From a bacterium (GTDB taxonomy: Bacteria; Actinomycetota; Acidimicrobiia; Spongiisociales; ZC4RG35): 34,138 bases of DNA. The position numbers were made by a program, and so were the translations under genes. The stretch lies in NCBI GenBank assembly GCA_024639335.1, contig JAHEIN010000011.1, positions 1 through 34,138 on the forward strand, written 5' to 3'. Each line of letters starts with the position of its first letter. The stretch's first letter is position 1. Under the pieces are notes generated by a model, which saw only the letters and a list, made by a program, of their open reading frames with translations, did not search any database and was not told the DNA's origin. Positions 5,049 to 18,528 of the stretch are shown in pieces.

Positions 5049-6383
5049 TCACCTCTTGCCTCGTCGACCGGGGGCGAGCCCGGGCATCCCGGGGAGGCCC
5101 TTTCCTCCGGCCATCTGTTTCATCATCTTCTGTGCATCTGCGAATTGCTTGAGCAGACGGTTGACGTCCTGGGGCTTCGTTCCCGAGCCGTTCGCGATGC
5201 GACGCCGTCGGCTTCCGCCGATGATCTTTGGTTTGTGCCGTTCCTCGGGGGTCATCGAACGAATGATCGCTTCGACCCTGGCGAGATCCCGATCATCGAC
5301 ATCGACATCTTTGAGCGCGGAACCGGCGCCCGGGAGCATAGCAAGGATGTCCTTGAGAGGCCCCATCCGCTTGATCATCTGGAACTGATTGAGGAAGTCG
5401 TCGAGGGTGAACTCACCCTTGGCCATCTTCTTCACCGAGCGCTCGGCGTCTTCTTCGTCGATGTGCGACTCGGCCTTCTCGATGAGCGAGAGGACATCCC
5501 CCATCCCGAGGATCCGACCGGCCATCCGCTCGGGGTGGAAGGGTTCGAAGTCGTCGAGTCCCTCACCCACACCGGCGAACTTGATGGGAACACCGGTGAC
5601 TTCTCGTACGGAGATCGCCGCGCCTCCTCGGGCATCACCGTCGAGCTTGGAGAGGACGACTCCGGTCACTTTGGTCTGCTCAGAGAAACCGGTCGCCACG
5701 TTCACGGCGTCCTGGCCAGTCATGGCGTCGACGACCAGGAGCACCTCGTGAGGGGTCACCTCCTTCTCGATGTCGGCCAACTCCTTCATGAGGTCGGTGT
5801 CGATCTGGAGCCGGCCGGCTGTGTCGATCAGCACCACGTCGTGGCCTTGGCGCACCGCCTCTTTCATGGCGTTCTTGACCAGCTTGCGGGGACGGGAGGT
5901 TCGTTCGGTGTATACGGGAACACCGATCCGTTCACCGAGACGCTCCAGCTGGTCGATGGCGGCTGGGCGCTGGAGGTCGGCGGCGACGAGAAGCGGCTTC
6001 TTGCCATCGCCCTTGAGCCGCTTGGCGAGTTTGCCCGTCGAGGTGGTCTTTCCCGAGCCCTGGAGGCCGACCATGAGGATCGTGAGCGGCTTCGGGCCCT
6101 TGTTGAGTTCGGCGGTGCCTTCCCCCAGAGTCTTGATGAGCTCCTCGTGGACGATCTTGATGACCTGCTGCCCGGGTGTGAGGCTCTTCTGGACATCGGC
6201 TTCGAGCGCTCGATCTTTGATCCGGCCGAGCATGTTGCGGGCCACGCCGACGTTGACGTCTGCTTCGAGCAACGCGAGGCGCACCTCGCGGAGCGCCGCG
6301 TCGATGTCGGCCTCCGACAACTTGCCCTTGCTCCGCAGCCGCGTGAAAACGTCGTCGAATCGATCGGTGAGGGTGTCGAACAT
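5049..6383 (-). CDS. ffh: Signal recognition particle protein Ffh
   Basis: MFDTLTDRFDDVFTRLRSKGKLSEADIDAALREVRLALLEADVN...GLQGSGKTTSTGKLAKRLK...DTAGRL...Met-rich C-terminal M domain. Start at 6383 rather than 6437. Confidence 0.97.
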   Translation of the reverse strand: MFDTLTDRFDDVFTRLRSKGKLSEADIDAALREVRLALLEADVNVGVARNMLGRIKDRALEADVQKSLTPGQQVIKIVHEELIKTLGEGTAELNKGPKPLTILMVGLQGSGKTTSTGKLAKRLKGDGKKPLLVAADLQRPAAIDQLERLGERIGVPVYTERTSRPRKLVKNAMKEAVRQGHDVVLIDTAGRLQIDTDLMKELADIEKEVTPHEVLLVVDAMTGQDAVNVATGFSEQTKVTGVVLSKLDGDARGGAAISVREVTGVPIKFAGVGEGLDDFEPFHPERMAGRILGMGDVLSLIEKAESHIDEEDAERSVKKMAKGEFTLDDFLNQFQMIKRMGPLKDILAMLPGAGSALKDVDVDDRDLARVEAIIRSMTPEERHKPKIIGGSRRRRIANGSGTKPQDVNRLLKQFADAQKMMKQMAGGKGLPGMPGLAPGRRGKR

Positions 6384-6421
6384 GTGTCGGGAACGGTAGT
6401 ACTGGTCACGGCGTGCGCCGT

Positions 6422-6491
6422 ACGCCTCATGTCCCACGCCTCACGTCCCACGCCTCACGCTCCACGCCGAACGCTCCACGCTCCGACGCGG
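6422..6491. repeat. Degenerate 14-bp (2x7-bp) tandem repeat upstream of ffh
   Basis: Units ACGCCTCATGTCCC / ACGCCTCACGTCCC / ACGCCTCACGCTCC / ACGCCGAACGCTCC / ACGCTCCGACGCGG. Confidence 0.85.
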
Positions 6492-6522
6492 CTGTGGGAG
6501 TCGGGCCACCGCTCCTACCGAT

Positions 6523-6597
6523 GTTCTTGGGTCGGCGCTGCCACCCGACCTCAACGTGGAAATCCGGCGAGCCGCGCAATGGTGACGACGCAAGAAC
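6523..6597. repeat. 75-bp inverted-repeat element A (diverged copy)
   Basis: Ends GTTCTTGGGTCG ... CGACGCAAGAAC; with one flanking base each side the arms are TGTTCTTGGGTCG/CGACGCAAGAACA, 12/13 complementary. Confidence 0.6.
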
Positions 6598-6659
6598 AGA
6601 GGGGAAACCTGGGTCACACCCGGCGGCAGCGACTCCGCTGTCACATCGAGTGGAGGACC

Positions 6660-6734
6660 GTTCCTGTGACGGAGGCCGCAACCCGCAACCAACCCGGACC
6701 GCCGACCACACACACGAATCGACGTCACAAGAAC
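6660..6734. repeat. 75-bp inverted-repeat element B
   Basis: Ends GTTCCTGTGACG ... CGTCACAAGAAC (11/12 complementary); left flank CCGTTCCTGTGACGG nearly identical to element C at 17304. Confidence 0.7.
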
Positions 6735-16896: not shown

Positions 16897-17301
16897 ATGA
16901 CCGGGTACAGCGGCACTCCGCTTGCGAAGAAGCTGGGGATGAAAACCGGAATGCGCGTGTGGCTCCGCAACGCGCCTGAGGATTTCGAAGACCTGCTCGA
17001 AGGGTTGCCAGACGACGTGTCGTTGTCACGCCGCAAGCGCGAGCGCGTCGACCTCGTGGTGTGCTTCTCGGCATCGGCGAGCAAGCTCGAAGCCGATGTC
17101 GATCTTGCCCGCTCGGTCATTCCACCAGATGGTGTCATCTGGACGGCATGGCCGAAGAAGGCTTCGAAGGTGCCGACTGACATCACCGAGGGCCGGCTCC
17201 GTGAGATGTTCCTGCCCACCGGTCTGGTCGACGTGAAGGTGTGCGCCATCGACGAGACCTGGTCCGGCCTCAAGTTCGTCATCCGCAAAGAGCTCCGCTG
17301 A
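16897..17301 (+). CDS. DUF3052-family protein
   Basis: GYSGTPLAKKLGMKTGMRVWLRNAPEDFEDLL...VIPPDGVIWTAWPKKASKVPTDITEGRLREMFLPTGLVDVKVCAIDETWSGLKFVIRKE. Confidence 0.85.
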   Translation: MTGYSGTPLAKKLGMKTGMRVWLRNAPEDFEDLLEGLPDDVSLSRRKRERVDLVVCFSASASKLEADVDLARSVIPPDGVIWTAWPKKASKVPTDITEGRLREMFLPTGLVDVKVCAIDETWSGLKFVIRKELR

Positions 17302-17303
17302 CT

Positions 17304-17356
17304 CCGTTCTTGTGACGGGAATGCACGGAATATCGACGTTTCCGTCACAAGAACGG
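17304..17356. repeat. Inverted-repeat element C (49-bp core 17306-17354)
   Basis: CCGTTCTTGTGACGG (17304-17318) and CCGTCACAAGAACGG (17342-17356): 15-bp perfect arms, 23-bp centre. Confidence 0.9.
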
Positions 17357-17426
17357 GGTGTGACGTCCGCCTCTCGCAACTCGACACATCTGACGACATG
17401 ATGGGCTCTGTCGAGAGGAGAAACGC

Positions 17427-17603
17427 ATGGCCGACACACCCCGCCACTCCGATCCCCCGCTCGTCATGGCGCTGGGTGGGCTGTTGGGTGGGCTGATCGG
17501 ATTCGCAATCTGGATGACGACCGAGACGTTCGTCTTCCTCCCCGTCTTCCTGGCTATCGGCCTCGTTGTCGGGATCTCGATCGCCCAGAACCGTCCAGGC
17601 TGA
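17427..17603 (+). CDS. Small (58 aa) predicted two-TM membrane protein
   Basis: MADTPRHSDPPLVMALGGLLGGLIGFAIWMTTETFVFLPVFLAIGLVVGISIAQNRPG; AGAGGAG upstream; stop overlaps the next ATG (TGATG). Below the ORF-track length cutoff. Confidence 0.7.
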   Translation: MADTPRHSDPPLVMALGGLLGGLIGFAIWMTTETFVFLPVFLAIGLVVGISIAQNRPG

Positions 17604-18082
17604 TGGATTCGATCCACGTCTCGCTGGTCGTCGCGGCCGGCTCACTGGCCAACCTGGCGATCGGAGCCATGTTCGTCGCAAGAGTCAGGCGCCCAGAAAG
17701 GGCGCGGGGACTCGGCTTCTTCGGCACGGCGATGGCGCTACCACTGGCCGCGGCCAGTCTCATCGCGTTCCTGGACGGAATGCATCCGTGGGACATCGCC
17801 CTCCCATTGGTGTTCGTGGTCTTCGCCGTGATCGAGGTCGGTGTCGACGTGATTGCTGATTTCGACGTGCGAAGCTCCCGATGGCTGTGGCCCTACCTGA
17901 CGTCCTTCTACGTCGCCCAGTGGGCAGTCATCGGTGCAGCGTTCCGAGCGTCCGAGGTCGGCGGTGCCGTAGTCCTCGTGACGTACTTCGTGTGCCTCGC
18001 GAGCGCTGCGTACTCCTATCGGCGAGTTGGGCACGGCACTGACCACGAGGGCTCAGTTGAGCAACGCCCCTCACTCGTGTGA
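17603..18082 (+). CDS. Predicted multi-TM membrane protein of unknown function
   Basis: 159 aa, about five hydrophobic segments (VSLVVAAGSLANLAIGAMFVA, GTAMALPLAAASLIAFL, IALPLVFVVFAVIEV, YLTSFYVAQWAVIGAAF, AVVLVTYFVCLASAAYSY); translationally coupled to the upstream 58-aa ORF. Confidence 0.75.
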   Translation: MDSIHVSLVVAAGSLANLAIGAMFVARVRRPERARGLGFFGTAMALPLAAASLIAFLDGMHPWDIALPLVFVVFAVIEVGVDVIADFDVRSSRWLWPYLTSFYVAQWAVIGAAFRASEVGGAVVLVTYFVCLASAAYSYRRVGHGTDHEGSVEQRPSLV

Positions 18083-18084
18083 TC

Positions 18085-18133
18085 GTTCATGTGACGAATA
18101 CACCGGTATTACCTGCGTTCTCGTCACAAGAAG
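18085..18133. repeat. Inverted-repeat element D (49 bp)
   Basis: GTTCATGTGACGA ... TCGTCACAAGAAG; arms 18086-18097/18121-18132 are 11/12 complementary; same length as C core; sits between convergent stops at 18082 and 18139. Confidence 0.85.
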
Positions 18134-18138
18134 GGGGT

Positions 18139-18528
18139 TCAGAGCTTGAACTGGAATGGGAGCAGGTCGTCGAGGCTGTGCTCTCTGACCTCTCCTTCGC
18201 TCGTGGTGACGAGGACGCGTGCGACGCCGAACTCCGACATGATCTGGCGACAGCGGCCACATGGATATGCCCCACTGACGTCCTTGGCGTCGACACAGGC
18301 GACAGCAACGACCGGGATCGTCGTCATGCCCTGGCTCACGGCGAAGTTGATGGCGTTCGCCTCGGCGCATTGAGACACCGGATAGGCGGCGTTCTCGACG
18401 TTGGCACTCGAGAACATCGCTCCTTCGGCTGTGAGCACCGACGCTCCAACTCGAAACTCCGAATACGGCGCGTAGGCCTTCTCGGCGGCCTTGCGGGCGG
18501 CCTCGATGAGTTCGGTGTCGGTCCTCAT
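18139..18528 (-). CDS. cdd: Cytidine deaminase
   Basis: AYAPYSEFRVGASVLTAEG, NVENAAYPVSQCAEANAI, PCGRCRQIMSEF. Confidence 0.95.
   Translation of the reverse strand: MRTDTELIEAARKAAEKAYAPYSEFRVGASVLTAEGAMFSSANVENAAYPVSQCAEANAINFAVSQGMTTIPVVAVACVDAKDVSGAYPCGRCRQIMSEFGVARVLVTTSEGEVREHSLDDLLPFQFKL

Follow-up and report, generated by a model that had tools for sequence, protein, structure and literature searches.

Fixed-length palindromes near gene ends in an actinobacterial genome, with common arms and differing cores in sister species

Elements C and D in the window

The window analysed here is a stretch of 34,138 nucleotides (contig JAHEIN010000011.1, positions 1 to 34,138), in which two short palindromes, elements C and D, lie on either side of two membrane genes. 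A 134-aa ORF (16897..17301, + strand) has its TGA 4 nt before C. The 58-aa membrane ORF (17427..17603) and the 159-aa membrane ORF (17603..18082) follow on the + strand, the TGA of the latter being located 2 nt before D, while the convergent cytidine deaminase gene (18139..18528, - strand) has its stop 5 nt beyond D. The sequence-only reading had placed C and D at 17306-17354 and 18085-18133, each 49 bp in length, with near-identical ends and at these distances from the TGA codons, enclosing the 58-aa and 159-aa ORFs. All of these particulars, including the coordinates and sizes of the ORFs, are confirmed on the sequence. The label DUF3052 for the 134-aa ORF could not be retained, since Pfam gave no match to it at E<=1e-3; the two membrane ORFs are likewise without a match at this threshold.

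Element C (17306..17354, no strand assigned; GTTCTTGTGACGGGAATGCACGGAATATCGACGTTTCCGTCACAAGAAC) is an intact family copy and stands at the top of the inverted-repeat list for the window. Its left arm (17306..17317, + strand, GTTCTTGTGACG) and its right arm (17343..17354, - strand, CGTCACAAGAAC, the reverse complement of the left arm) are both perfect over 12 bp and enclose a 25-nt core (17318..17342, no strand assigned) of the type found in this genome. Element D (18085..18133, no strand assigned; GTTCATGTGACGAATACACCGGTATTACCTGCGTTCTCGTCACAAGAAG) runs from GTTCATGTGACG to CGTCACAAGAAG and is slightly decayed, with one substitution in the left arm and the last base changed. The element matches no Rfam family in the window or at the neighbouring loci.

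Two longer palindromes, also without an assigned strand, are present in the region upstream of an SRP54-type gene (5049-6437, - strand). One is 75 bp in length (6660..6734) and has family-like arms (GTTCCTGTGACG/CGTCACAAGAAC); the other is 77 bp (6522..6598) with arms GTTCTTGGGTCG/CGACGCAAGAAC. Their middles are unrelated, and both are possible relatives of the family.

Copy number, placement and folding of the family

The pattern TTCTTGTGACG-N25-CGTCACAAGAA has 18 exact copies in the source genome (G000, 3.2 Mb), and none was found with the reversed pattern used as a control. Spacers of 10 to 40 nt were allowed in the search, and all 18 matches have a spacer of exactly 25 nt. This genome contains 39 exact arm 11-mers, and 36 of them sit in pairs of exactly 47 bp. 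Chance is excluded by these pairs and by the 18 copies against an empty control. The architecture consists of arms of 11-13 bp around a 25-nt core, with the length fixed. With C and D included, the family amounts to about 20 copies in G000, which like all copy numbers given here is a lower bound because the genomes are draft assemblies. Most copies are single and lie between unrelated conserved neighbours. C and D do belong, as had been proposed, to one constant-length repeat family with conserved ends, and the fallback reading of coincidentally similar terminators, tied to a motif occurring nowhere else in the genome, fails.

In G000, 10 copies are located between convergent genes, 7 between genes of the same direction and 2 at contig edges. 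G001, a sister species of the same genus, has 6 convergent and 3 same-direction placements, and divergent placement is seen for none of the 28 copies of this genus. Stop codons near the elements show a preferred gap to the 47-mer of exactly 5 nt, seen for 17 of 24 stops in G000 and for 9 of 13 in G001 (gene calls are based on codon usage and approximate). All 26 stops at this distance, from the 37 cases, are TGA, a codon that ends about 80% of long ORFs. It does not belong to the element itself, since it is missing on the sides where no gene ends. One G000 copy directly follows a tRNA-Ser gene, and copies in the relative G036 adjoin tRNA-Leu and tRNA-Ala genes; a tRNA supposed beside the copy at L095:6168 was not confirmed. 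In other genera the 5-nt rule is absent. Many genes there have their terminal TGA within the arm (gap -9), and some copies have divergent genes on either side, which counts against a 3'-end reading. A core polarity was suspected by eye, since all 7 one-sided G000 copies turn one core half toward the gene end, but it was rejected, there being no trend in G036.

The elements are predicted to form long and strong hairpins on both strands, with z values from -2.3 (for D) to -11.7. The arm sequence differs by lineage, both arms being changed to match (TTCTTGTGACG, TTCTCGTGACG, TTCTCGGGTCG and TTTTGGTGACG), and in the relative G103 the stem extends outward with locus-specific pairing above the shuffled expectation. 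The flanks vary among copies except for a CG that prolongs the stem, and CGTC is present only within the paired arm. The core halves are often non-complementary and at some positions anti-symmetric, which gives each element two unlike halves; a simple hairpin does not need this mismatch, and it counts against a hairpin reading. T-runs of four or more are absent from the copies of G000 and G001 and number one or two in the other genomes, and no terminator-like site was found in the region. The frame read through after the TGA contains 5 stops in G000 where 13.7 are expected. Compared with shuffled cores, this frame has 8 stops against 5.2 in G001, 102 against 32.6 in G036 and 48 against 26.7 in G103. 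Such excess stops leave a read-through peptide past the TGA unsupported outside G000.

Among the relatives, exact copies are present in G001 (8), G103 (33), G120 (3) and G036 (2). With up to 3 mismatches, 8 of 149 relatives have any copy; G036 has 60, G103 34, G043 32 and G001 12, and the G034-type relatives have none. The TTCTYG pattern gives 38 copies in G043, and G073 (97% complete, from the genus of G103) has 1-2 copies. A scan of species-representative genomes returned matches in a few actinobacterial MAGs only, and the viral contigs searched contain no copies. With three arm positions left open, 28 of 395 genomes of the class show this architecture at 46-48 bp but with different arms (for example TTTTGGCGTCG in G074, G174 and G299), and the reversed control gives 6 genomes with one match each; this pattern cannot tell the free arm positions because the remaining letters were fixed. 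The family is patchy within the class, and each genome has its own "dialect" of arm and core. Contig C29 of G036 carries two exact copies of the TTCTTG type whose sequence and flank recur in G103 (L092 vs L061), which suggests that this contig may be mis-binned. The four arm sequences are matched in 14 papers, of which the ten listed deal with unrelated subjects.

On contig C35 of G133, four 46-bp copies that are almost the same in sequence are clustered within 5 kb in one orientation (L241:5713, 6596, 9384 and 10722), with TCG directly on both sides of each. This cluster is a recent local amplification.

Arms and cores in sister species

Six orthologous sites were compared between G000 and G001. 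Both flanks are aligned at three of the pairs (L101/L052, L093/L071 and L099/L084) and one flank only at the other three (L095/L067, L095/L070 and L100/L131); the pair L066/L103 is not the same site and was not counted. Over the six sites, the arms agree at 131 of 132 positions, as compared to 31 of 150 (21%, equal to chance) for the cores. Core likeness is 0.61 within G000 and 0.72 within G001, and falls to 0.32 between them, with 0.30 for shuffled cores. Three copies in G001 (C188:1659, C76:10685 and the one at the D site) have retained the core type of G000; the arms of all three are damaged, whereas 8 of the 10 copies with the new core have perfect arms (p=0.035). At one gene end, this element type is found in G001 and variant arms (GTTCTCGGGTCG/CGACCCGAGAAC) in G000. 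On the alignments, these six pairs, three of them anchored by one flank, show a core exchange between the sister species in which the arms appear to have been kept and the cores replaced. Copying or conversion directed by the arms would explain this better than point mutation at every site, though we hold this with less confidence. It may also be that the cores have co-evolved with a changing protein.

At 24 matched loci of G043 and G036, a few of which are only neighbouring sites, identity is 96% in the arms, 71% in the cores and 73% in the flanks. At two of the loci the core is inverted in place with collinear flanks, as judged from the printed sequences. Hairpin-loop inversions in chloroplast DNA flip a loop in place between short inverted arms. 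The two inverted cores resemble them, but the present family is multicopy and dispersed, and its cores are also replaced. The element is variably present at one G103 site.

Two of the orthologous sites show further features. About 1.36 kb of extra genes lie between the upstream gene and the element in G001 (L131:140-1500, compared to L100:4712), and the upstream gene there ends in a different short hairpin. At L099:5254-5371, about 110 bp beside the element are nearly identical to L084 in surrounding DNA that is about 80% identical. This stretch folds strongly (z -5.5), matches no Rfam family and is possibly an unannotated structured RNA; its identification as SRP RNA is without Rfam support.

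Comparison with known repeats and possible explanations

REPs, REPINs and CGTC-REPs, as described in PMC3733652, are short intergenic palindromes located mostly between convergent or same-direction genes and near 3' ends, and the present family resembles them in being short, palindromic and intergenic and in its closeness to 3' ends. Strict REPs carry a GTAG or CGTC tag and are RAYT-linked (PMC3733652). Among the copies studied here no unpaired GTAG or CGTC was seen at the stem end, and the Y1/RAYT transposase domain PF01797 was found in none of the 8 bearer genomes searched, its control being positive in 5 of 14 known genomes. The family also differs from REPs and REPINs in having no tag outside the stem, in its fixed 47-49 bp with a 25-nt core and in the exchange of cores between sister species. 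The earlier description as REP/MITE-like thus stands for REP-like in the broad sense and falls for a strict REP, since PF01797 is absent from the 8 bearer genomes searched. The family is multicopy, intergenic, palindromic and mostly at 3' ends, and is best read as new, untagged, REP-like interspersed palindromes. Hairpin repeats are common at the ends of bacterial genes, and CGTC-REPs are likewise without a known transposase (PMC3733652). The SLS families (PMC2267715; untagged ones in PMC3733652) share with the present family that they are repeated, form stem-loops and are mostly intergenic. Neither this family nor its order is listed in the relevant passages of these two accounts, which also do not describe near-fixed stop spacing or constant arms with an exchanged core.

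C and D both follow stop codons and fold, and the G000 read-through frame is poor in stops. One could therefore see in them two independent intrinsic terminators that are similar by coincidence, or a stretch that is translated by read-through. We regard this as very improbable in view of the 18 exact copies against none in the control, the excess stops in G001, G036 and G103 and the copy located after a tRNA gene; moreover, the G+C-rich hairpin of an intrinsic terminator is present and the T run that should follow it was not found. TRIT, reportedly a sequence-conserved terminator motif of M. tuberculosis, is by its description also an actinobacterial repeated hairpin at gene ends, and is set apart, again by description, by the absence of a U-tract from the present family. 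The source for TRIT is RNIE (Gardner 2011), cited in PMC3526491. In E. coli, ribosomes repress a terminator placed 5 nt past the stop codon (PMC4824070), and a plain intrinsic terminator is unlikely here because of this repression and the lack of a U-tract. The bracketed 828 bp had further been put forward as a unit, C and D flanking exactly two membrane genes as they would if they bounded a mobile cassette, integron-like or composite-transposon-like. Integron attC sites lie beside stop codons and are palindromes with mismatches, their ends being conserved and their middle variable. The present elements share these traits, but they have GTT...AAC as ends, the opposite of the attC consensus, and they lie between convergent resident genes and not in same-direction arrays. 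Comparison of the syntenic locus, which the sequence-only reading had called for, shows the same order in G001 (upstream ORF, 58-aa gene, 159-aa gene, cytidine deaminase) with no family copy at the C site and a D copy more decayed than in G000. The genes and their boundary sites do not come and go together, and the bracketed genes are hence not a mobile unit. The two membrane genes are ordinary resident genes, and since most copies elsewhere in the genome are single, amid unrelated conserved neighbours, we give a cassette hardly any credence.

It is conceivable, though rather unlikely, that the elements are sites of a sequence-specific DNA-binding protein that recognises both arms together with a core particular to each genome and serves chromosome organisation, insulation or roadblock termination. 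Arms near-invariant beyond what pairing alone requires, the fixed 25-nt spacing and core halves that vary independently or anti-symmetrically, as half-sites could, would suit such a protein, as would the copies between divergent genes, and the sites would lie between genes because they are tolerated there. A double-strand site, however, does not need the matching changes on both arms or the pairing beyond expectation in the outward stems of G103; the stop-codon spacing is exact in the genus of G000 and G001, and between the sister species all sites would have had to change their cores simultaneously. A conventional MITE, made of the two terminal repeats of a DDE-type transposon and moved by a transposase not seen here, could account for the patchy distribution, for the presence or absence at C and at the G103 site, for the near-identical clustered copies of G133 and for genes of other genera ending inside an arm, as after insertion. 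We judge it unlikely. Direct repeats beside the 47-mer are not above the shuffled expectation in five genomes, and the TCG on both sides of the four G133 copies is the only hint of target duplication; no full-length transposon with the same ends is present in the arm list of G000, an assembly that is fragmented and 91.6% complete; and at orthologous sites the arms have persisted in place over long periods, unlike those of dead copies.

We incline modestly to the view that the elements are untagged REP-like 3'-end hairpins which are spread or homogenised through their arms. The hairpin would form in the RNA right after the coding region and define or protect the 3' end of the transcript, and between convergent genes it would serve both sides. 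Both the hairpin and its location behind the stop codon would be under selection, and the elements would thus probably function at the RNA level. A reasonable variant would be an effect on the termination of translation, by analogy with the REPs of E. coli, which at up to 15 nt from the stop codon stall ribosomes and affect translation (PMC12306157). With less confidence, we suggest that copies spread and are kept alike via the arms, by transposition-like copying or by gene conversion or template switching between hairpins, the enzyme presumably being other than a Y1/RAYT transposase. As such a process acts via the arms, the core of intact copies would be exchangeable while the arms stay. A bolder form, possible but doubtful in our opinion, is a self-homogenising palindrome, in which an enzyme or a process of replication would rely on the invariant arms for overwriting the 25-bp cores of intact copies genome-wide, so that the whole set of a lineage would switch core type and only broken-arm copies would keep the old core. 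Two species of one genus have sites and arms in common and cores not. This contrast sets apart what is constrained (arms, length and stop spacing) from what is copied (the core), and it allows the function as well as the process of spreading to be tested.

Other palindromes were observed in the same genomes. A second family, whose members measure about 47-55 bp and have arms resembling GAACCCAGGGCTC...GAGCCCTGGGTTC, has a G000 copy at L093:2353-2399 that is absent at the matching G001 site, and is also found in G036/G043 (L164, L166, L174, L191, L202, L204, L211 and L215). Near-perfect palindromes of the GTTTTGGCGTCCATTTGGGC..GCCCAAATGGACGCCAAAAC type are present in G103 (L055:1707, L057:5482, L085:2606 and 4503, L087:6576), several of them within about 200 kb. 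A further type of the same length, TTCTCGTCAATGCCG...CATTGACGAGAA, is seen in G036 at L198:9369 and, as two copies 60 bp apart, at L185:3823 and 3883.
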